Source: a bacterium (GTDB lineage Bacteria > Sysuimicrobiota > Sysuimicrobiia > Sysuimicrobiales > Segetimicrobiaceae). From it: DNA of 64,000 nt. Position numbers and translations under genes: made by a program. Under the pieces are notes generated by a model, which made no database searches, was not told the DNA's origin, and saw only the letters and a list, made by a program, of their open reading frames with translations. Positions 3,195 through 60,381 of the stretch are shown in pieces. Every line of letters begins with the position of its first letter. Position 1 is the stretch's first letter. The stretch is from assembly GCA_035295165.1 (NCBI GenBank), contig DATGJN010000092.1, forward strand, positions 1 through 64,000. The letters run 5' to 3'.

Positions 3195-4271
3195 ATGAGC
3201 GCGTCGCGGCCACCGCGAGCCGCCGGGGTCCGCGGCCGCGGCGCTGCGCGCGTCGCCTCCCCGGCGGCGACGAGCGGCCCCGCGGGTCGGACGCCACACG
3301 TTGTGCTGCTGCTGGGCGACGAGGACGTGCGCGCCGAGGAAGCGCTCCGGACGCTACTCGACGAGTGGGTGCCGGCCGACCAGCGCGCGCTCAACGTGGA
3401 CGTCCTCGACGCGGGCGAGACGCCGGTTCAAGCGATCATCACCCGGTGCGAAACGCTGCCGTTCTTCGGCCCCAGGCGCGTCGTCGTCGTCCGACAGGCG
3501 GGCGTCCTGCGCCCTGCGGATCAGGACGCGCTCGCCTCGTACCTCGAGCCCGCGCCGCCGTCGTCGTCGTTGGTGCTGGTCGCGGATGCTCTCGACCGGC
3601 GGCGCCGGCTCTACGGTGTCGTCCAGCGGGTTGGCAGGGTGATCCCGTGCGGCCGGCTCGATCCCGAGGCGCTTCCGCCGTGGGTTCGCGCTCGAGCGCA
3701 GCGCGAGGGAAAGACGATCGCGCCGGATGCGGCGCGCGCGCTCGTGCTGTTCGTCGGCAGCGGTCTTCGCGAACTCGGTCTCGAGGTCGCGAAGCTCGCC
3801 GCATATGTGGGCGAGCGCAAAGAGATCACGCTCGAAGACGTGCGGGCGGTCGCGAGCCACGTGGCCGAAGCCACCGTGTTTGAACTGATGGACGCGGTCG
3901 GGCGCCGAAGGGCGGGCCGCGCGCTGGACCTGCTGCAGACGGTGATCACGATGGGGGAGCCACCGGTGCGCATCCTGTACATGCTGGAGGATCAGCTCCG
4001 GATGCTCCTCCGCACCAAGACGCTCATGGAGCGGCGCGCGACGCCCATTGAGCGGCGTGACGTCCTCGGCAACCGGGCCTGGTTATACGAACGTTACCGG
4101 GAGCAGGTCTCGGCGTTCGGACGGCTGGACGCGGGAGAGATGCTGAGCACCTTGCTCGAGGTCGACGGGATGATCAAGACCGGCGCGGTGGCGCCGCGGC
4201 TTGCGCTCGAGACCCTCATCGTCCGCCTCTGCGCGCCTGGGCCGCTCGAGCAGGGGGCGGGGCGTCGGTGA
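3195..4271 (+). CDS. holA: DNA polymerase III subunit delta
   Basis: Delta subunit of the clamp loader, which opens the beta clamp on DNA. The 358-residue protein matches HolA in order: a P-loop-like but non-ATPase domain starting at HVVLLLGDEDVRAEEAL (about 35), a middle domain, and the helical collar domain with AVASHVAEATVFELMDAV and EPPVRILYMLEDQLRMLL. The first 33 residues are basic, low in complexity and not part of the usual fold, so the true start could be later, but no better in-frame start with a ribosome site is visible. The neighbour rpsT lies convergently downstream, a pairing seen in many bacteria. Confidence 0.9.
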   Translation: MSASRPPRAAGVRGRGAARVASPAATSGPAGRTPHVVLLLGDEDVRAEEALRTLLDEWVPADQRALNVDVLDAGETPVQAIITRCETLPFFGPRRVVVVRQAGVLRPADQDALASYLEPAPPSSSLVLVADALDRRRRLYGVVQRVGRVIPCGRLDPEALPPWVRARAQREGKTIAPDAARALVLFVGSGLRELGLEVAKLAAYVGERKEITLEDVRAVASHVAEATVFELMDAVGRRRAGRALDLLQTVITMGEPPVRILYMLEDQLRMLLRTKTLMERRATPIERRDVLGNRAWLYERYREQVSAFGRLDAGEMLSTLLEVDGMIKTGAVAPRLALETLIVRLCAPGPLEQGAGRR

Positions 4272-4767: not shown

Positions 4768-6381
4768 ATGGCTAGCGGAGAAGTCGACCTGACCGCCGCC
4801 CGCCGCCCGGCGGCGTCGGGCGGGTTGGCTCGGGCGGCCAGTCTGATCGCTGCCGGCACGATCGCGAGCCGGGTGCTCGGCCTCGTTCGTGACGTCGTGA
4901 TCGCGGCGATGTTCGGCGCCACGTCAGTGAAATCCGCGTTCGTGATCGCGTATTCGTTACCGTTCTTCGTCCAGCGGCTATTTCTCGGCGGGACCCTCAG
5001 CATCGTGTTTATTCCCACGATCACCCGGGTGTTGATGCGGGGGGACGCGGAGGAGACCGACCGCGTCGTCACGAGCACGTTCAACTTGGTGATCGTGATC
5101 GGGTTGCTCATGGTCGTCGTCGGGGTGCTGGCCGCGCCCGTGCTCGTGCCCATCGCGGCGCCGGGATATTTGACCACGAACCCCTCGGTGCTCACGCAGG
5201 CGATCGGGCTGACCCGCGTGATGTTCGTGTCCATGGTGTTCCTGGCGCTGTCCGCCTTCGCGACCGGATACCTCAACGTCCATCGGCAGTTCGGCGTGCC
5301 CGCGCTCGCGCCCACGGTGTTCAACCTCGTCATCATTGGCGGCGTGCTCGTGCTCGCTCCGCGAATCGGGGTCCTCGGGATCGCCTTCAGTTTCCTCGCG
5401 GGCTGGATCGCGCAGTTTGTGGTGCAGCTGCCCGCGGCCCGGGCCGCGGGGCTTCGATGGAGCCCCAAGATCGACCTGGCGCATCCCGTGATCCGTGAGA
5501 TGGGACGTCTCGCGCTGCCGGCGATGCTGGGGTTGGCCGTGATCGAGATCAACGCCAATGTGAACCGCTTCTTCGCGTCGTTCCTGCGCGGCACCCCCGG
5601 GGTCGACTACGTCGCGGTGCTCGACTACGCGTTCCAGCTCATCCAGGCGCCGGTCGCGATCTTCGCGCTCTCGCTCGCCACCGCGTTATTCCCGACAATG
5701 GCGCGGCACGCCGCGGGCAGCGGACACACCGCGCTCCGAGAGACGACGTCGCTCGGCCTGCGCGGCGTGTTCTTCACGATGATGCCGGTGATGGCGGCGA
5801 TCTTTACCGCGAGTCACTTGATGGTGCGCGTGATCTTCGAGCGCGGGGTGTTTCAACCCGCCGCGACGCAGGCCGTCGCCGCCGCGCTCGTGGCCTTCGC
5901 CGTGGGCACGGTACCGTACGCCGCCTACTACATCGTGACGCGCACTTACTACGCGCTGCACGACATGCGGACGCCGGTGCGGGTCGGCCTGTTTATGATT
6001 GCGCTGAACGCGATCGGCAACTTCGTGCTGATGCGGCGGTTCGGGTTTGTCGGGATCTCGCTCTGCACCTCGGGCGTCGCGGCCGCGAACGTCGCCGTGC
6101 TGCTGTGGCTGCTGCGCGGGCGTCTCGGCGGGCTCGGCGGCCGAGAGATCCTTGTCACGGCGGTCCGGACCACGATCGCGGCGGCGGCGCTCGCCGCGGT
6201 AATGGTGGTCACGCTGCGCGTCGTGGGAGGCGCGGTGAGCACCCAGCACCTTTCGGGGGCCCTCGTGCAGTTGGGCGCGGCGCTGCTGGCCGGCGGGGCC
6301 GTCTACCTGGCGGTGTGCGCCGTCCTGGGCGTCGAGGAGCTCGAATTGCTGCGGGCGTTCGGCCGGGGAGGCCGTGCCTGA
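4768..6381 (+). CDS. murJ: Lipid II flippase MurJ
   Basis: MOP-superfamily flippase that moves lipid II across the inner membrane for peptidoglycan synthesis. The product (537 residues from this start) is highly hydrophobic with about 14 transmembrane helices. It carries the N-terminal MviN pattern GTIASRVLGLVRDVVIAAMF, the Pro/Phe-rich FVQRLFLGGTLS loop, and the PYAAYYIVTRTYYALHDM segment typical of the family. An in-frame ATG at 4756 overlaps the -10 box and so is unlikely to be transcribed. The ATG at 4768 is preferred. No Shine-Dalgarno sequence is present, in keeping with a leaderless start. Confidence 0.93.
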   Translation: MASGEVDLTAARRPAASGGLARAASLIAAGTIASRVLGLVRDVVIAAMFGATSVKSAFVIAYSLPFFVQRLFLGGTLSIVFIPTITRVLMRGDAEETDRVVTSTFNLVIVIGLLMVVVGVLAAPVLVPIAAPGYLTTNPSVLTQAIGLTRVMFVSMVFLALSAFATGYLNVHRQFGVPALAPTVFNLVIIGGVLVLAPRIGVLGIAFSFLAGWIAQFVVQLPAARAAGLRWSPKIDLAHPVIREMGRLALPAMLGLAVIEINANVNRFFASFLRGTPGVDYVAVLDYAFQLIQAPVAIFALSLATALFPTMARHAAGSGHTALRETTSLGLRGVFFTMMPVMAAIFTASHLMVRVIFERGVFQPAATQAVAAALVAFAVGTVPYAAYYIVTRTYYALHDMRTPVRVGLFMIALNAIGNFVLMRRFGFVGISLCTSGVAAANVAVLLWLLRGRLGGLGGREILVTAVRTTIAAAALAAVMVVTLRVVGGAVSTQHLSGALVQLGAALLAGGAVYLAVCAVLGVEELELLRAFGRGGRA

Positions 6382-14223: not shown

Positions 14224-14415
14224 ATGCCGCTGGAGATGCGGCGGAAGTGCGAACGGTGCGGCCGCGCGCTGCCCCCCGACGCGGACGCGTACATCTGCAG
14301 TTTCGAGTGCACTTTCTGCGCAGTCTGCGCGGGCGCGATGGGGGACGTGTGCCCCAACTGCGGCGGCGAGCTCGTGCGCCGGCCGCGCCGGAAGCATCCC
14401 GCCGCGCCCCGCTAG
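14224..14415 (+). CDS. DUF1272 small zinc-ribbon protein
   Basis: A 63-residue protein with eight cysteines arranged as pairs (C9/C12, C25/C29, C32/C35, C43/C46), enough for two zinc sites, and the ending CPNCGGELVRRPRR typical of DUF1272. The function of the family is unknown. The ATG follows the carB stop directly (TAGATG), so it is probably translated by coupling from the carAB message. The Arg-rich tail suggests nucleic-acid or ribosome contact, but this is only inference. Confidence 0.8.
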   Translation: MPLEMRRKCERCGRALPPDADAYICSFECTFCAVCAGAMGDVCPNCGGELVRRPRRKHPAAPR

Positions 14416-14452: not shown

Positions 14453-14520
14453 TTCACGACCTTTTCATGCGCCATTCACAACTTCTTCGTACGCCGTCCG
14501 TACACTGAAAAGCGTAGAAT
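14453..14520 (+). promoter_or_regulatory. Five 11-bp direct repeats and -10 box: activator array for the pump operon
   Basis: Hexamers TTCACG (14453), TTCATG (14464), TTCACA (14475), TTCGTA (14486) and TCCGTA (14497) start exactly 11 bases apart, so all lie on one face of the helix. This matches the hexamer plus five-base spacer layout of PhoP/PhoB-class OmpR regulators. A -10-like TAGAAT (14515-14520) begins 12 bases after the last repeat, and no -35 is visible. The operon encodes its own OmpR-type regulator, so autoregulation is likely. Confidence 0.7.
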
Positions 14521-14551
14521 CAATGTAGCATCAAAGCGGGAGGGATTGGCG

Positions 14552-14915: not shown

Positions 14916-15605
14916 ATGCCTACCATCCTGGTCGTCGACGACGAGCCGCAGATCGTAGAACTGCTGCGGTCGTACCTCCAGCGGGACGGGTTCACCGTGG
15001 AGCAAGCGGCCGACGGCGAGGCCGCCCTGTCGGCCGTGGCGCGCGGGCACCCCGACCTGGTGGTACTGGACCTCATGCTGCCGCGTGTGGACGGTCGGGA
15101 AGTGTGTCGTCGAATTCGTGCCGAGGGGACGACGCCGATCATCATGCTCACGGCGCGCGACGAAGAGACGGACAAGTTGCTCGGGCTCGAGCTCGGCGCT
15201 GACGATTACATTACGAAGCCCTTCAGTCCTCGCGAAGTGGTGGCGCGTGTCCGGGCGGTGCTGCGCCGCGGCGTGCGGGAGGGCGCGAGCGTGATTCATG
15301 CCGGGGATCTCACGATCGACCTGCGCGCGCACGAGGTCACGCTCGGCGCGCGGCGCCTGGAGCTGACGCCGACGGAGTTCCGACTGCTCGAGACGCTCGC
15401 CAGTCACCCCAACCAGGTGTTCACGCGCATGCAGCTGATCGACCGCGTGCAGGGACACGCGTTCGAGGGGTACGAGCGCACCGTGGACGCGCACATCAAG
15501 AACCTCCGCGGTAAGGTGGAGCCCGATCCTCGTACGCCGCGGTATGTGCTGACGGTCTACGGAGTGGGGTACAAGTTCTCCGGTGGAGAGGACCATCGTG
15601 CGTAG
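14916..15605 (+). CDS. OmpR/PhoB-family response regulator
   Basis: DNA-binding output of a two-component system. The 229-residue product has a receiver domain with acidic pocket residues 8-9, phospho-acceptor Asp52 (VVLDLMLPRVDG), conserved Thr/Lys (MLTARDEE, YITKPFSPRE), and a C-terminal winged helix (LTPTEFRLLETLASHPNQVF, YGVGYKF). It begins 7 bases after the SHOCT gene and overlaps the kinase. The 11-bp repeat array upstream of the operon is the expected kind of target for this class, so it probably regulates its own pump. The stimulus is unknown. Confidence 0.93.
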   Translation: MPTILVVDDEPQIVELLRSYLQRDGFTVEQAADGEAALSAVARGHPDLVVLDLMLPRVDGREVCRRIRAEGTTPIIMLTARDEETDKLLGLELGADDYITKPFSPREVVARVRAVLRRGVREGASVIHAGDLTIDLRAHEVTLGARRLELTPTEFRLLETLASHPNQVFTRMQLIDRVQGHAFEGYERTVDAHIKNLRGKVEPDPRTPRYVLTVYGVGYKFSGGEDHRA

Positions 15606-16755
15606 CCTGCGCGCGAGGCTCAGCGTCGCGTTCGTCGTGATCGCCGTGCTCACCACGGCGCTGAACACCACGTTCGTGACGGTTACGTCGCGCACGATGT
15701 TTCGGCAGTACGTCGAGCAACGGCCCGACCAGGCCGCGAATATCCCGAGCGTCGGCACGCGGCCGGCCGGGCCGTCGCAGCAGACGGCCGAGCCGGAGCG
15801 GCATGGTCGATTCGGCTCCCGCGAACGGCTGTTTCAGTCGCGGATCCGCGAAGCGATCTGGGGCGGCACGCTCGTCGCGGCCGGTGTCGGCGTGCTCGTG
15901 GCGCTGTGGCTGGCGCGCCGGATCGCCCGGCCGGTCACCGATCTGACCCGGGCGGCGCGGGCGATCGCCGCAGGAAACGATGCGCCGACGGTTCCGGTGT
16001 CCGGCCGGGACGAGGTCGCGGATCTCGGGCGCGCGTTCAACCGGATGGCGGTGCAACTGGCTCAGGACGCAGAACAGCGCCGGCAGTTGTTTGCCGGGAT
16101 CACGCACGAACTGCGGACGCCGCTCGCGGTCATCCAAGGACAGTTGGAAGGGATGCTCGACCGCGTCATCGAGCCGACGCCGGATCGCATCGCCGGCCTG
16201 CACGGTCAGACCCTGCTGTTGCGCCGGCTGATCACGGACCTCCGCGACCTTTCGCTGGCGCAAGCGGGCCAGCTGCGGCTCCACCCGGAGACGGTCGACG
16301 TGGCCGAGCTCGTCTCGGAGGCGGTCGAGGCGTTCGCGCCGTCGTTCCATGATCGAGGAATCTCGGTGGAGCTCGCCGCCCCGAAGACGCTGTCGGTCAC
16401 GGCGGACCCGGACCGGCTCCGGCAGATCGTGCAAAACTTGGTGGACAACGCGCTCCGGTACACGCCGAGGGGGGGGACCGTGCGGATCACCCTGCGCTGG
16501 GAGAACGATGGCGTCCGGCTGGCCGTCGCGGATACCGGGCAGGGCATCGGCGCGGGGGACCTGCCGCACATCTTCGAGCATTTCTATCGGACGGACCAGT
16601 CGCGGACCCGGAGCAGCGGCGGGATGGGCCTCGGGCTTGCGATCGTGAAATCACTCGTCGAGGCGCACCACGGTCGCGTGACCGTGGAGAGCACCCCGGG
16701 CGCCGGAAGCACGTTTACGGTCGTGCTTCCGATGCGCCTACAGGAGGGAGCATGA
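15598..16755 (+). CDS. Sensor histidine kinase
   Basis: The 385-residue kinase has an N-terminal membrane helix (about 6-28), a short external loop of about 65 residues, a second helix (about 92-108) and a HAMP linker. A HisKA domain follows with the phospho-acceptor His170 in FAGITHELRTPLAVIQGQ, then an ATPase domain with NLVDNALRYT, DTGQGIGAGDLPHIFEHFYR and GMGLGLAIVKSL. The GTG at 15598 is preferred because GGAGAGG lies about 7 bases before it; another GTG at 15583 is possible. It overlaps the regulator upstream and the TolC-like gene downstream (ATGA). The small sensor loop fits recognition of an envelope or drug signal. Confidence 0.93.
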   Translation: MRSLRARLSVAFVVIAVLTTALNTTFVTVTSRTMFRQYVEQRPDQAANIPSVGTRPAGPSQQTAEPERHGRFGSRERLFQSRIREAIWGGTLVAAGVGVLVALWLARRIARPVTDLTRAARAIAAGNDAPTVPVSGRDEVADLGRAFNRMAVQLAQDAEQRRQLFAGITHELRTPLAVIQGQLEGMLDRVIEPTPDRIAGLHGQTLLLRRLITDLRDLSLAQAGQLRLHPETVDVAELVSEAVEAFAPSFHDRGISVELAAPKTLSVTADPDRLRQIVQNLVDNALRYTPRGGTVRITLRWENDGVRLAVADTGQGIGAGDLPHIFEHFYRTDQSRTRSSGGMGLGLAIVKSLVEAHHGRVTVESTPGAGSTFTVVLPMRLQEGA

Positions 16756-18155
16756 ACTGGCTAATGCTCGTTTCCATTCTCACCGCGGCGCTGCTGGCCG
16801 CGGGGTCCGGCATGCCCGGTGGCATCGCGTTGGCGGCGTCCGCGCCGGCCGGCCCGACGTCCGCGCAGGGACAGGCGCCGTCGGCGCCCGCGGGCCCGGC
16901 GTTGACGCTCGATCAAGCGATTCAGCAGGCGCTCGCGCAGAATCCACAGGTGACGGCGGCGCAGCAAGCGCTGGCGGCTGCCCAGCAGGGCATCACGATC
17001 GCCCGCACGGGGCTGGAGCCGACGGTGTCCCTGAACGGAAGCGGAAACTACGGCACGACGTCCGGCACGACGGTGACGTCCACCGGCGTCGCCCAGGTGC
17101 TCCCGAGCGTGCAGGGAACCGGCTCCGTGTCGTTCGTCGGCAGCGTGCCGCTGTTCGACGGCGGACGGACGAGCGCCGAGGTGGGCTCGGCGACCGCCGG
17201 CGTGGCGATCGCCGAGGCGGCGCTGCGGTTGACGCAGCAGAGCATTGCGCTCCAGACCGCGACCGCCTTCTTCAACGTGCTGAGCGCGGAGAAACTGACC
17301 GACGTTCGGCAGGCGCAGCTCAAGCAGAACCAGGACCAATTGGCGCAGACCCAGGCGCAGGTCAAGGCGGGGGTGGCGGCGCAGTCGGACGTCATCCAGG
17401 TCCAATCCCAGGTCGCGCAGGCGCAGGTGAACCTCTTGAGCGCCCAGGCTCAGATCGCCACGAGCAAGGCGGCGCTGCAGGCGCTGCTCGCCGCGGACGT
17501 TGCCGGGGCGGTCGAGGTCCAGGCCCCCGCCGCGCCGCCGGCGGCGGTGGCGGGCAGTGGCGCCACGGCCGTACAGCAGGCGCTGGCGAACCGGCCGGAG
17601 GTGGCGCAGGCGCAGGCCCAGGTCCAGTCGGCGCAGTCCGGGTTGGACCTCGCCCGCGTCAATGCCGGCCCGCAGATGAGCCTGTCGATCAATACCACCT
17701 ACACTCCGGCGAGCACGAACTCCAACCTCACCAACAACGTGGGGTACGGGCTCGGCGGCACCGTCAGCCTTCCTCTCTATGACTCCGGCAAGGGGCGGGC
17801 CGAGGTCCAGCAGGCGCAGGCGACGCTCCAGAGCGCCCAGGCCTCGCTCAGCGCAGCGCAGCTGTCGGTCCGACAGGACGCCTACCAGGCGTACCTCAAC
17901 GCGGTGCAGGCGGCTGCGAACCTGACCGCGACCGCGACGGCGGCCGCGGCGGCGGACGCGGCGCTGCAGGTCGCCCAAGGGCAGTACCGCGCGGGCGTGG
18001 GTACGATTCTGAACGTGACGACCGCAGAAGCGAACGCCGCGCAGGCCGACGTCAACGCGGTGAGCGCGGTGTACAGCTACCAGACGGCGTTGGCGACGTT
18101 GCTGCATGCCGAAGGGCTGCCGATTCAGAGCAGCGCGCTGGGAGGGACACAATGA
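16752..18155 (+). CDS. TolC-family outer-membrane efflux channel
   Basis: Outer-membrane channel of a tripartite pump. The 467-residue protein has a signal peptide (hydrophobic 5-29, ALAASA). Two repeated halves follow, rich in Ala and Gln with long heptad helices, including LTLDQAIQQALAQNPQV and VKAGVAAQSDVIQVQSQVAQ in the first half. The second half has the matching beta segment SLPLYDSGKGRAEVQQAQ and YRAGVGTILNVTTAEANAAQ. The two-repeat OEP layout is standard. It shares ATGA overlaps with the kinase before it and the membrane-fusion protein after it. Its presence is the best evidence in the window for an outer membrane. Confidence 0.92.
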   Translation: MNWLMLVSILTAALLAAGSGMPGGIALAASAPAGPTSAQGQAPSAPAGPALTLDQAIQQALAQNPQVTAAQQALAAAQQGITIARTGLEPTVSLNGSGNYGTTSGTTVTSTGVAQVLPSVQGTGSVSFVGSVPLFDGGRTSAEVGSATAGVAIAEAALRLTQQSIALQTATAFFNVLSAEKLTDVRQAQLKQNQDQLAQTQAQVKAGVAAQSDVIQVQSQVAQAQVNLLSAQAQIATSKAALQALLAADVAGAVEVQAPAAPPAAVAGSGATAVQQALANRPEVAQAQAQVQSAQSGLDLARVNAGPQMSLSINTTYTPASTNSNLTNNVGYGLGGTVSLPLYDSGKGRAEVQQAQATLQSAQASLSAAQLSVRQDAYQAYLNAVQAAANLTATATAAAAADAALQVAQGQYRAGVGTILNVTTAEANAAQADVNAVSAVYSYQTALATLLHAEGLPIQSSALGGTQ

Positions 18156-19630
18156 CAGGGACATTCGGCCGCGCAGGCCGCATCGCCGCGATCGTGCTGA
18201 TCGCCATCTTGATCGTCGGCGCCGGCGTCGTGGGATACCAGCGCCTGACCACGAGGCGCAACGGGGTGCAGTATGTGACGCGGCCTGTCGCGTACACGGA
18301 CATCACGTCGACCGTGAGCGAGACCGGCACCGTGAACCCCGTGGACGTGGTGCAAGTAGGTACGCAGGTGTCCGGGACGATCGCGGCGCTGAACGTGGAC
18401 TACAACTCCAAGGTGACCAAGGGCCAGATCCTCGCGGTTCTGGATCCAACGACCTTCCAGGCAACCGTCGCACAGGGCACCGCCAATCTCTCCGCGGCGC
18501 AGGCCACCGCCCGCGCCAGCGCCAGCGCGATCGAGCAGGATCTGTCCGCCGTGCAGGCGGCGACGGCGACCCTGGCGCAGCAGCAGGCATCGCTCCGGAG
18601 CGCGCAGGCCAACGCGGCGAAGGCCGCCGCCACGCTGGCGCTCGCGAAGACGACGGTGCAGCGGGACGCCGAGTTGCTGAAGCAAGGGTACATTCCGCAG
18701 AGCCAGATGGATACGGATCAAACGGCTCAAGCGGCGGACGCCGCGGACGTGGGCGCCGCACAGGCGGCGGTCCAGGTTGCCCAAGCGCAGGTGCAGGCCG
18801 CGTCGTCTCAGCTGCAGAGCACCCACGACCAGGTGACGACCGCGCAGTCGCAGGCGGCGGCCACGCAGGCACAGGCGACGGCCTCGGCCGCGCAGGTGCG
18901 GCAGGCCCAGTACAATCTGTCACAGACGCTCATCAAGAGTCCCGTGGACGGGATCGTGATGGCACGCAACGTGAGCGTCGGACAGACTGTGGCCGCGTCG
19001 TTTTCGACGCCGACGCTGTTCACGCTCGCGACGAACCTCACGGACATGCAGGTGGACACGTCGGTGGACGAGGCGGACGTCGGCAACGTCAAGATGGGGG
19101 AGAGCGCGCAGATCACCGTGACGGCGTTCCCCAACGTCACGTTCAACGGCACCGTCCAGCAGGTGCGCGTCAACCCGACCGTAACCAACAACGTCGTCAC
19201 GTACGACGCGGTCGTCGTTGTCCACGATAGCTCGGGACGCCTCCTGCCGGGCATGACGGCCCAGGTCGCGATCAACACCGGTACGCGGACCCACGTGCTG
19301 GCCGTGCCCACGGCCGCGGTGCTGTACCGCCCCCTCACGTCGCGGAGCGGCGGCGCGGGCGCCGCCGGGGGCGGTGGATCGCTGGTGCAGAGCGGGTCCA
19401 GCCAGCAGGGGCCTCCTGTCGCCGGCGCGCCGGGGTCTACAGTGACCGTGTGGATGCTCCGCAGCGGGCACCCCGCCCCGGTGCGCATCGTGATCGGTCT
19501 GTCCGACAACCAGAACATTGAGGTACGAAGCGGCAGTCTTCGAAACGGCGATGCTGTGATCGTGACCGAGCGGCGCGGCGGCGGAGGCGGTGCTCGGTCG
19601 GGCGGCGGAAGCTCAGGGGGCGGCCAATGA
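18152..19630 (+). CDS. MacA/HlyD-family membrane-fusion protein
   Basis: Periplasmic adaptor linking the inner-membrane pump to the outer channel. The 492-residue protein has one N-terminal anchor helix (about 10-30), the lipoyl/barrel-sandwich entry VNPVDVVQVGTQVSGTIAAL, a long Ala/Gln coiled-coil hairpin (about 105-255), the return QTLIKSPVDGIVMARNVSVG, a beta-barrel domain and a membrane-proximal domain. The tail is Gly-rich and unstructured. It overlaps both neighbours by four bases. The coiled coil is longer than in many MacA proteins, suggesting direct contact with the channel. Confidence 0.92.
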   Translation: MTGTFGRAGRIAAIVLIAILIVGAGVVGYQRLTTRRNGVQYVTRPVAYTDITSTVSETGTVNPVDVVQVGTQVSGTIAALNVDYNSKVTKGQILAVLDPTTFQATVAQGTANLSAAQATARASASAIEQDLSAVQAATATLAQQQASLRSAQANAAKAAATLALAKTTVQRDAELLKQGYIPQSQMDTDQTAQAADAADVGAAQAAVQVAQAQVQAASSQLQSTHDQVTTAQSQAAATQAQATASAAQVRQAQYNLSQTLIKSPVDGIVMARNVSVGQTVAASFSTPTLFTLATNLTDMQVDTSVDEADVGNVKMGESAQITVTAFPNVTFNGTVQQVRVNPTVTNNVVTYDAVVVVHDSSGRLLPGMTAQVAINTGTRTHVLAVPTAAVLYRPLTSRSGGAGAAGGGGSLVQSGSSQQGPPVAGAPGSTVTVWMLRSGHPAPVRIVIGLSDNQNIEVRSGSLRNGDAVIVTERRGGGGGARSGGGSSGGGQ

Positions 19631-20451
19631 CCGGGGACGCCACCACGATTGCGCCCGCGCCGGTCGGCACTGTGGACCGGGCGGGCGCCGCGGGCGCCGA
19701 TCCCTTGATCGACGTCCGCGATCTGACCAAAGTGTACGGCGAGGGGGCGACCGCGATCCGCGCGCTGCGGGGCGTTAGCCTCGTGGTGCGCCGCGGTGAG
19801 TTTGTGGCGATCATGGGGCCGTCCGGGTCGGGCAAGTCCACGTTCATGCACCTGCTCGGCTGCCTGGATCGTCCGACGTCGGGATCGTACCGGCTCGCCG
19901 GTCGGGAGGTTTCCCGACTGTCGCGCGACGAACTGGCGCTCGTGCGCAACCGCCAGATCGGCTTCGTGTTCCAGAGCTTCAATCTGCTCGCCCGGACGAC
20001 GGCGCAGGAGAACGTGGAGTTGCCGCTGCTGTACGCCGGCGTTCCCCGCGACACCCGCGTGGCGCGCGCCCGGGAACTGCTGCAGCAAGTCGGACTCGGC
20101 GACCGTCTCGGGCACCGCCCGAGCGAGCTGTCGGGTGGGCAGCAGCAGCGGGTCGCGATCGCGCGCGGACTCGCGAACGGCGCGCCGCTGCTGATGGCGG
20201 ACGAGCCGACCGGCAACCTCGACAGCGCGAGCAGCGCCGAGATCATGACGCTGTTCCAACACCTCAACCGCGTCCAGGGCATCACCGTAGTTCTGGTGAC
20301 TCACGACATGGACATCGCGGCGTGGTCGGAGCGCGTGGCCACGTTCAAGGACGGGTTGATCGTCGACGACCGGCCGTCCGCAGAAGCGGTTCCCTCGGCC
20401 GTCCGCGAGGCAGCGACCCGCGGGGCGTTGACACCGGAGGTGCGCGCGTGA
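19627..20451 (+). CDS. MacB/LolD-type ABC transporter ATPase
   Basis: Energises the pump. The 274-residue ATPase shows Walker A GPSGSGKSTFM, Q-loop FVFQSFNLL, signature [17 protein letters not shown], Walker B LLMADEPTGNLDS and the H-loop VLVTHDMD, all intact. About 35 extra N-terminal and 30 C-terminal residues flank the core. The family exports antibiotics, peptides or lipoproteins by mechanotransmission instead of substrate passage through the membrane domain. The permease is a separate gene, overlapping by GTGA, unlike E. coli MacB where the two are fused. Confidence 0.95.
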   Translation: MTGDATTIAPAPVGTVDRAGAAGADPLIDVRDLTKVYGEGATAIRALRGVSLVVRRGEFVAIMGPSGSGKSTFMHLLGCLDRPTSGSYRLAGREVSRLSRDELALVRNRQIGFVFQSFNLLARTTAQENVELPLLYAGVPRDTRVARARELLQQVGLGDRLGHRPSELSGGQQQRVAIARGLANGAPLLMADEPTGNLDSASSAEIMTLFQHLNRVQGITVVLVTHDMDIAAWSERVATFKDGLIVDDRPSAEAVPSAVREAATRGALTPEVRA

Positions 20452-21665
20452 GTCTTTCCAACCTGCTCCGCATTGCCTGGCAGGCGCTCCGGCGGAACAT
20501 TACCCGCTCCATCCTGACGATGCTCGGTATCATCATCGGTGTCGGCGCGGTGATCACGTCGATGGCGATCGGGGCGGGCGCGCAGGCGGCGGTCCTCGCG
20601 CAGATCGAGAGCCTTGGAGCGAACCTGCTCGTCGTCATCCCCGGGGCGATCACCACGGGCGGGGTGAACCTCGGCAGCGGCAGCCGCACGACCCTCACGC
20701 TGCCCGACGTCACCGCGATCGCCCAGACCGTGCCGGAGGTCGCCGGCGCCGCGCCGTACTCGCAGACGAGCGCGCAGGTGGTCGCGGGCGGGACCAATTG
20801 GTACACGGTGGTTGGCGGGACGACGCCGTCCTATACGACCGTGCGGAGTTGGGCGGTGGCGCAAGGCCGATTCTTCGCGCAGGCGGACGTGGACCAGGCC
20901 ACCAAGGTGGCCGTGCTCGGCGCCACCGTCGCGCAGAATCTGTTCCCCTCGGGCGGGGCGGTCGGCGCGACCGTGGTCGTCAAGAACGTCCCGTTCAAGG
21001 TCGTCGGCGTGCTCGCGGCCAAGGGGCAGTCGGGGTTCGGCCGCGATCAGGACGACGTGGTGATGGTCCCGATGACGACATTGCAGGCCCGGCTGACCGG
21101 GCAGACGTGGGTGAACAACATCTTTGTCTCCGCGACGACGCCGGAAGCCGTCCCCCTGGTCGTGGACGCGACCGAGCGGTTGCTCCGCCTCCGGCACCAC
21201 CTGACCGTCTCGCAGCCCGACGACTTCTCGGTCCGCAACATCGCGGACATCCAGCAGGTCCGCATTGCCACCTCGCAGACGCAGGCGCTGCTGCTGGCCG
21301 GCATCGCGGTCGTGTCGCTGGTCGTCGGTGGGATCGGCATCATGAACATCATGCTGGTCTCCGTCACCGAGCGGACACGCGAGATCGGCCTTCGCATGGC
21401 CGTGGGCGCCCGCGGGCGAGACATTCTCCTGCAGTTCCTGGTCGAGGCGCTGACGCTCGCGTGCGTCGGCGGGCTGATCGGTATCGGGATGGGGCTCCTC
21501 ACGGCCCAGGGCACGTCGGTTCTTGGGCACTGGCCCGTGCTCGTCTCCGGGTTCTCGATCGTGCTGGGGTTCGTGTCGTCGCTGGTCGTCGGCGTGGTCT
21601 TCGGATTCTATCCGGCGCAGCGGGCGGCGGCGCTCGACCCGATCGTGGCGCTGCGGTACGAGTAG
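20448..21665 (+). CDS. MacB/FtsX-like ABC permease
   Basis: Membrane subunit of the pump. The 405-residue protein has the MacB layout: helix 1 (RSILTMLGIIIGVGAVITSM), a large periplasmic domain (about 45-270), then three helices (LLLAGIAVVSLVVGGIGIMN, a second after FLVEALTLACVGGLIGIG, and a third after VLVSGFSIVLGFVSS). The ending DPIVALRYE is typical of the family. GTG at 20448 overlaps the ATPase stop (GTGA). It is the last gene of the operon. No clear terminator follows before the relic region at 21746. Confidence 0.94.
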   Translation: MSLSNLLRIAWQALRRNITRSILTMLGIIIGVGAVITSMAIGAGAQAAVLAQIESLGANLLVVIPGAITTGGVNLGSGSRTTLTLPDVTAIAQTVPEVAGAAPYSQTSAQVVAGGTNWYTVVGGTTPSYTTVRSWAVAQGRFFAQADVDQATKVAVLGATVAQNLFPSGGAVGATVVVKNVPFKVVGVLAAKGQSGFGRDQDDVVMVPMTTLQARLTGQTWVNNIFVSATTPEAVPLVVDATERLLRLRHHLTVSQPDDFSVRNIADIQQVRIATSQTQALLLAGIAVVSLVVGGIGIMNIMLVSVTERTREIGLRMAVGARGRDILLQFLVEALTLACVGGLIGIGMGLLTAQGTSVLGHWPVLVSGFSIVLGFVSSLVVGVVFGFYPAQRAAALDPIVALRYE

Positions 21666-58771: not shown

Positions 58772-60381
58772 GCGACGGTCACACGGGGAGTCGCGTTGAC
58801 GGCGTCGAGGTCACGGGGGTGGTGGAGGCCCGGCTTGCACCGGTGCTGAGCCCCGACGCGCTCCGGTTCGTCGCGCGTCTGCACCGCGAGTTCAACCCGA
58901 CGCGGGTGGCCCTCCTTCGGGACCGCGCCGATCGGCAGGCCGCATTCAACGCCGGGGCGCTCCCAGCGTTCCTCTCCGCCACGCGGAGCATCCGCGAGAG
59001 CGCGTGGCGCACGGCTCCGGTTCCCGACGACCTTCAGCGGCGGCACGTCGAGATCACCGGCCCCGCGGAGCGGAAGATGATCATCAACGCGCTCAACTCT
59101 GGCGCGGATGTCTTCATGGCCGACTTTGAGGACGCGCTCTCGCCGACCTGGGCGAACGTCCTCGAGGGACAGCAGAATCTTATCGACGCGGCAGGTCGGA
59201 CGATCGCATACACCAGCCCGGAGGGGAAGACGTACCGGCTGGGCGAGACGATCGCGACGTTGCTCGTCCGTCCGCGCGGCTGGCACCTGACCGAGAAACA
59301 CGTGCTCGTGGACGGACGACCGATCGCCGCGGGGCTCTTCGACTTCGGGCTCTACTTCTTCCACAACGCGCGGCGTCTGTCGGAACGGGGCACCGGACCG
59401 TACTTCTACCTGCCCAAGCTGGAGAGCCACACCGAGGCACGGCTGTGGAACGACGTGTTCGTCGCGGCGCAGGACGCGCTCTCGGTGCCGCGCGGCACGA
59501 TCAAGGCGACCGTGCTCGTCGAGACCGTGCTTGCCGCGCTCGAGATGGAAGAGATCCTCTACGAGTTGCGGGATCACTCCGCCGGCCTGAACGCCGGTCG
59601 ATGGGACTACATCTTCAGCGTCATCAAGAAGTTCCGGGACCGCCCGGGGTTCGTGCTGCCCGACCGTGCGCAGGTGACGATGACCGTGCCGTTCATGCGG
59701 GCCTACACCGAGTTGCTCGTCCGGACATGCCACCGGCGGGGCGCGCATGCGATCGGCGGCATGGCCGCGTTCATCCCCAACCGCCGGGACGCGGCGGTGA
59801 CCGAGGTGGCGTTGGCCAAGGTTCGGGAGGACAAGGTCCGCGAGGCGCAGGCCGGCTTCGACGGCACCTGGGTCGCCCACCCGGACCTCGTTGCGGTGGC
59901 GGCAGGTGTTTTCGACCGGGTGCTCGGGTCGCGCCCGCACCAGGTCGAGCGCCTGCGCGACGACGTCCACGTGACGGCGCGTGAAATCCTCGACGTGCGC
60001 GTGCCGGGCGGCGAGACGACGGAGGCGGGCCTGCGCAACAACATCAGTGTCGCACTGCAGTACCTCGAGGCGTGGCTCGGAGGCTCCGGCGCCGTGGCGA
60101 TCTACAACCTGATGGAAGACAGTGCGACGGCGGAGATCTCCAGAAGTCAGGTGTGGCAGTGGGTGCGCCACGGGACCGCGCTCGCCGAGCACCGGCATGT
60201 CAGCGCCGAGTTGGTGCGTCGGATGTGCGACGAGGAGGTCGCCCGGCTGCGCCGTGAGCGCGGGGACACGGGCGGTGCCGCGGGTCGGCTCGATTGGGCG
60301 CGGAAGCTGTTCGAAGAGGTGGCGCTCAGCGAGACGTTTGTGGAGTTTCTGACGCTTCCCGGGTACGCTGCGTTGGACTGA
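58768..60381 (+). CDS. aceB: Malate synthase A
   Basis: Condenses glyoxylate and acetyl-CoA to malate. The 537-residue protein is the length of the A form, with [93 protein letters not shown] and [20 protein letters not shown]. The ATG overlaps the AroM stop. No isocitrate lyase gene is nearby, so its glyoxylate may come from another source, such as breakdown of the imported compound. It converges with the oxidase operon with only four bases between stops. Confidence 0.96.

Follow-up and report, generated by a model that had tools for sequence, protein, structure and literature searches.

The PHO boxes of the Streptomyces OmpR-family regulator PhoP, which serves the phosphate regulon, have a GTTCAC-like core. 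They are built from 11-nt direct repeat units, sometimes four in a row (PMC7866108). In E. coli, the boxes of both PhoB and ArcA have an 11-bp spacing, and ArcA sites with 3-5 such repeats are known, some of them footprinted (PMC3798270). PhoB sites cover the -35 region (PMC3348028). Systems of the BaeSR/CusSR type link a kinase and an OmpR-family regulator to an envelope efflux pump, and phage-shock and Lia-type loci combine SHOCT-like domains with two-component systems and transporters (PMC11237479). In our literature search, SHOCT genes were found close to two-component systems within phage-shock loci, whereas an operon with the layout described here was not.

The locus studied here consists of an array of 11-bp direct repeats and a seven-gene operon behind it, in a window of 64,000 nucleotides (the whole stretch of DNA that was analysed; Table 1). 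Similar to the E. coli pho box, the array has direct-repeat half-sites that lie over the -35 region beside a -10 element, next to a regulator of the OmpR/PhoB family, but its half-sites read TTCAC/TTCAT rather than the PhoB word and are four in number, the operon carries a SHOCT gene and a pump, and the regulator falls below the PhoB cut-off. It shares with E. coli ArcA the multiple 11-bp repeats and the OmpR-family regulator, whereas ArcA mostly represses and its sites take no set position with respect to the promoter, and the distance to the -10 is invariant here. The 11-nt direct repeat units and an OmpR-family regulator are also common to Streptomyces PhoP, from which the locus differs in regulator group and operon content, the PhoP units belonging to a phosphate regulon. 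Different from the BaeSR/CusSR-type systems, the kinase and the regulator do not reach the cut-offs for BaeS and BaeR, and the operon encodes a MacAB-type ABC transporter rather than an RND pump and includes a SHOCT gene. Compared to phage-shock and Lia-type loci, the SHOCT protein is paired with an OmpR-type regulator, and no PspA, PspC or Toastrack domain is present among the Pfam matches of the operon. Since multi-repeat ArcA sites at 11 bp and 11-nt PhoP units are known, the kind of element is already known; the element is real, comparatively well supported and ordinary in kind, and its anatomy is corrected below.

Table 1. Positions of the repeats, promoter elements and genes of the locus in the window
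Feature	Position	Strand	Basis or remark
Half-site 1, TTCACG	14453..14458	+	T/G-T-C-A in 18/18 aligned promoters
Half-site 2, TTCATG	14464..14469	+	Hexamer check and promoter alignment
Half-site 3, TTCACA	14475..14480	+	Hexamer check and promoter alignment
Half-site 4, TTCGTA	14486..14491	+	Hexamer check and promoter alignment
Hexamer 5, TCCGTA	14497..14502	+	Overlaps likely -10; weak match; rejected as repeat
Likely -10, TACACT	14501..14506	+	9 bases from half-site 4; NANNNT at exact offset in 18/18 promoters
Earlier proposed -10, TAGAAT	14515..14520	+	Counterpart TACAAT within genus only; possible secondary start
RBS for SHOCT gene, GGGAGGG	14538..14544	+	Sequence
SHOCT membrane protein, 118 aa	14552..14908	+	Pfam SHOCT 8.6e-8; hydropathy
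OmpR/PhoB-family response regulator, 229 aa	14916..15605	+	Pfam Response_reg and Trans_reg_C
Sensor histidine kinase (HAMP, HisKA, HATPase_c)	15598..16755	+	Pfam domains
TolC-type outer membrane factor	16752..18155	+	Pfam OEP 4e-66
MacA/HlyD-type periplasmic adaptor	18152..19630	+	Pfam and curated models
MacB-type ATPase	19627..20451	+	Pfam and curated models
MacB-type permease (MacB_PCD, FtsX)	20448..21665	+	Pfam and curated models

The seven genes, with overlaps from the regulator through the permease, had been recognized in the preliminary description, and each of these junctions indeed overlaps. The first gene product has hydrophobic segments at residues 12-30 and 57-75 and a C-terminal domain that belongs to the SHOCT family (32.1 bits against a Pfam gathering score of 27). 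A receiver domain (2.2e-33) and a Trans_reg_C winged helix (1.6e-26) place the regulator in the OmpR/PhoB family, with MtrA and RegX3 as its nearest solved chains, and the kinase contains two hydrophobic segments with about 58 residues between them and an alternative start upstream at 15583. By curated models the regulator is near MtrA, PhoB and BaeR and the kinase near BaeS, its best NCBIfam model. Nevertheless, the regulator scored below the cut-offs of the PhoB orthologue model (235.8 bits against 296.2), the MtrA orthologue model (250.3 against 300) and the BaeR model (232 against 380), and the kinase below that of BaeS (265.2 against 500), indicating that both are family members without a named orthologue. 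The last four genes encode, as judged by their domains, a MacAB-TolC tripartite ABC pump with an OEP factor, an HlyD-type adaptor, a MacB-type ATPase and a MacB_PCD/FtsX permease, in which the MacB part is divided between two genes and the scores stay under the equivalog cut-offs for E. coli MacA and MacB.

The stretch 14453-14491 reads TTCACGACCTT TTCATGCGCCA TTCACAACTTC TTCGTA, with a hexamer step of exactly 11 bases. This repeat is real, and with hexamer-like half-sites placed head to tail 11 bp apart it has the form of a tandem direct-repeat box of the OmpR/PhoB type. On both strands of the window, four TTC at spacing 11 occur once and four TTC at spacings 7-10 or 12-15 not at all. When the array was scored over five positions per half-site (20 points) plus the TA...T element (maximum 23), the site at 14453 reached 22 for array plus -10, and wherever else in the window a score of at least 16 was obtained, it came from this array read with a shift of one or two units. 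Genome-wide scans were carried out as pattern searches: the 4.79 Mb genome has the full pattern without mismatch a single time and lacks the reversed control pattern even when 2 mismatches are allowed. Of the five hexamers at 11-base steps in the preliminary description, all are present at the positions given there and the first four stand far above chance, but the fifth, at 14497, is a weak match that is not conserved as a repeat in the orthologs, and it was rejected. A DUF1272 protein of 63 residues is encoded at 14224-14415, where its gene immediately follows CarB and is separated from the array by 37 bases, and a DUF1272 gene also lies upstream of the array in both genus relatives (L009 and L010).

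Nine relatives of the family have all seven genes in unchanged order, two of them with operons split between contigs, and their regulators are 76-90% identical. A search for the repeats before such orthologous operons had been proposed earlier, with their absence or loss of phase as the refuting outcome; the claim withstood this test, the repeats being found in phase in seven of the nine, from three genera. The other two, both of a fourth genus, g3, have a decayed array that keeps half-sites 1 and 3 and the -10 and has lost the TTC of half-sites 2 and 4. Within the family the whole unit TTCACAACTTC (half-site 3) is nearly invariant, as is the longer word TTCACAACTTCTTCG in the orthologous operons, and half-site 4 is TTCGAA, TTCGTA or TTCGAC, being mostly TTCAY or TTCGC elsewhere in the order.

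Conservation in phase upstream of orthologs, as expected of a tandem box, extends to ten further operons from three other families of the order, whose regulators are 64-69% identical. The arrays of these ten operons stand 0.5 to 1.9 kb ahead of the regulator gene, and among the one to three genes that intervene there is always a SHOCT gene. The ten operons outside the family scored 17-20 of the 20 half-site points; among 1,860 dinucleotide-based resamplings of 2-kb upstream stretches, a score of 17 was reached once and 18 never, and spacings of 9, 10, 12 and 13 gave only background in the upstream-region comparison. No array was found upstream of seven related regulators (61-70% identical), whose operons form one clade in the regulator tree. 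In 79 upstream regions from relatives in other phyla, 11-bp arrays were no commoner than those at 9, 10, 12 or 13 bp; the link between array and regulator was not found outside the order. In two genomes of the array-less clade (G030 and G038), arrays precede TolC genes that stand apart from the regulator at a distance of about 9 kb, which is suggestive only. Such an arrangement, with array and TolC gene about 9 kb from the related array-less regulator on the same contig, is seen in two genomes of family f2, at L294 (9347, plus strand) and L295 (1799, minus strand), and in one of them a MacA-like adaptor follows TolC.

On these comparisons, we consider it likely that the locus has a PhoB-type activator promoter that is autoregulated by the operon's own OmpR-family regulator, and the array is most likely the landing site of that regulator. 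Throughout the order the array accompanies orthologs of the regulator, also where different genes intervene, which points to the cognate regulator. So do paralogous regulators (58-61% identical) with a changed recognition helix: regulators with the helix ERT(V/I)DAH carry TTCAC arrays, and those with ERAIDSH have TCCAC arrays before their own operons. This joint change supports, without proving, the regulator-site assignment, since it comprises four arrays of one clade and hence one evolutionary event. Both observations bear out the earlier proposal of an OmpR/PhoB-class box at 11-bp steps before the regulator's own operon. In one such paralogous operon (L161; G000:C119), with a TCCAC array at 2994 and the regulator at 3599, the first gene encodes a small membrane protein without Pfam match, followed by regulator and kinase; a second TCCAC-type array at 5444 precedes a gene resembling a short-chain dehydrogenase.

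Alternatively, the array may be bound mainly by another OmpR/PhoB paralog, for instance a phosphate or global envelope regulator, with the operon in a wider regulon and not chiefly self-regulated. The genome has eight other regulators that match that of the window at E <= 1e-50, and the pattern including the -10 had 36 matches in 12 family genomes (one being the window's array shifted by a unit), against none for its reversed control in the same genomes. With spacing and -10 offset unchanged, several matches lie before unrelated secreted proteins and some before phosphate genes; the latter encode a PhoU (identified by visual inspection of the sequence), a fusion of DUF47 with a winged helix, and a protein with an MGS domain, probably a methylglyoxal synthase. 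The TTCAC-type box thus appears common to several paralogous regulators, and its presence before both kinds of genes means that the box alone does not name the signal. As the same box stands before genes likely under other paralogs, a paralog could bind here as well. Nevertheless, we regard control mainly by another paralog as unlikely, given the array's travel with the regulator's orthologs, the changed array before the own operon of the helix-changed regulator, and the near invariance of the longer word in the family's orthologous operons.

Further arrays of this type were seen in other settings. Four TTCAC arrays (G000:C26:2983, C35:3903, C46:18625 and C116:44905) precede genes for small proteins that look secreted, one of which has a PepSY domain, and the start codons come about 110-120 bases after the array start; these are candidate regulon members. 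A weaker array with 2 mismatches (L286; G000:C94:33199) lies about 90 bases upstream of an HMA heavy-metal-domain protein, a possible metal link. L268 (G003:C172, array at 59086) and L221 (G026:C1, array start near locus base 2245) encode fusion proteins of 318 and 314 residues, respectively, each preceded by its own 11-bp array; they combine a PhoU-like (DUF47/PhoU_div) domain with an OmpR-type winged helix and lack a receiver domain, the former confirmed by Pfam and the latter read from the sequence. They are possibly one-component phosphate regulators, and a limited literature search found no description of such a fusion.

The distance between array and promoter also bears on the direction of control. 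NANNNT was found at offset 48 in 18 of the 18 array-aligned promoters (14 of them TANNNT) and at any other offset from 40 to 69 in at most 4 of 18, and the array positions did not move when the -10 was left out of the score, at every locus having an array. TACACT is therefore the likely -10, from which a transcript start is expected at about 14512-14515. The preliminary description had chosen TAGAAT at 14515, which was probably misplaced and is rejected as the -10, its conservation being confined to the genus. It was right about the lack of a -35: no sigma-70 promoter match was found. As at PhoB-type (class II) promoters, the box takes the place of the -35 at a fixed distance from the -10, and these two features together give the geometry of PhoB-activated promoters, with the box over the -35 region.

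That the regulator binds the array to repress the operon, with release or exchange on signalling, seems very unlikely. An array so near the -10 would also allow bound protein to block polymerase, and ArcA, of the same family, mostly represses (PMC3798270); however, there is no -35 for an activator-independent promoter, and the fixed distance between array and -10, which repressor sites do not need, fits direct polymerase contact. The probability that the repeats arose by chance in a TTC-rich stretch and have no regulatory role, as their short and degenerate hexamers might allow, is close to nil, and we reject it in view of the in-phase conservation over four families, controlled by shuffles and by alternative spacings, and of the reversed control patterns, which had no match in the family's genomes.

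For the preferred reading, autoactivation by the operon's own regulator, we propose the following mechanism. The four TTCAC-like half-sites, 11 bp apart on one helix face, would bind two dimers of the regulator; with half-site 4 ending 9 bp before TACACT, the box would cover the -35 region, and the bound regulator would contact RNA polymerase in place of the missing -35. Phosphorylation of the regulator by the kinase would turn on the operon for the SHOCT protein, the regulator, the kinase and the MacAB-TolC-type pump, giving positive autoregulation coupled to an efflux output. The sequences themselves show an array in constant phase, at a set distance from the -10, linked to the regulator throughout the order and changing with the recognition helix of the paralogs; binding, activation rather than repression, and dependence on phosphorylation are what we infer. 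An envelope-stress or drug-response role is plausible, and the signal may, as a guess, be envelope, metal or drug stress.

Each TTCAC-type operon that was examined has a SHOCT gene separating the array from the regulator gene. This reverses the earlier view that a SHOCT protein as first gene was the unusual part: it is constant, and the pump is the family-specific part. The cargo is MacAB-TolC in the window's family and, in other families, a periplasmic-looking protein of about 240 residues without Pfam match; three genomes of other families have a cupredoxin-like protein (Pfam was run on one). Other families have Met-rich SHOCT proteins, which together with the cupredoxin hint at copper or silver, but the SHOCT protein of the window is not Met-rich. 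SHOCT-like domains have been proposed to anchor complexes at the membrane (PMC11237479). We may guess that the SHOCT protein here is a membrane accessory that adjusts the activity of kinase or pump. Tentatively, and short of calling it probable, we suggest an order-wide three-part module, in which the SHOCT protein, produced from the autoregulated promoter ahead of the regulator, would be a dedicated accessory of kinase and regulator (a scaffold or feedback sensor, comparable to CpxP in its relation to CpxA), the cargo would be lineage-specific, and the two-residue helix change accompanying TTCAC to TCCAC would be a readable specificity code.

A little-known bacterial order thereby gains a well-defined regulator-site pair that is readable from sequence. 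With the box, its set spacing from the -10 and the parallel change of helix and box among paralogs, regulons can be predicted, and the way in which OmpR-family regulators gain new specificity can be tested directly. In addition, SHOCT proteins, whose function has been little studied, are placed as the constant companion of a sensor-regulator pair.
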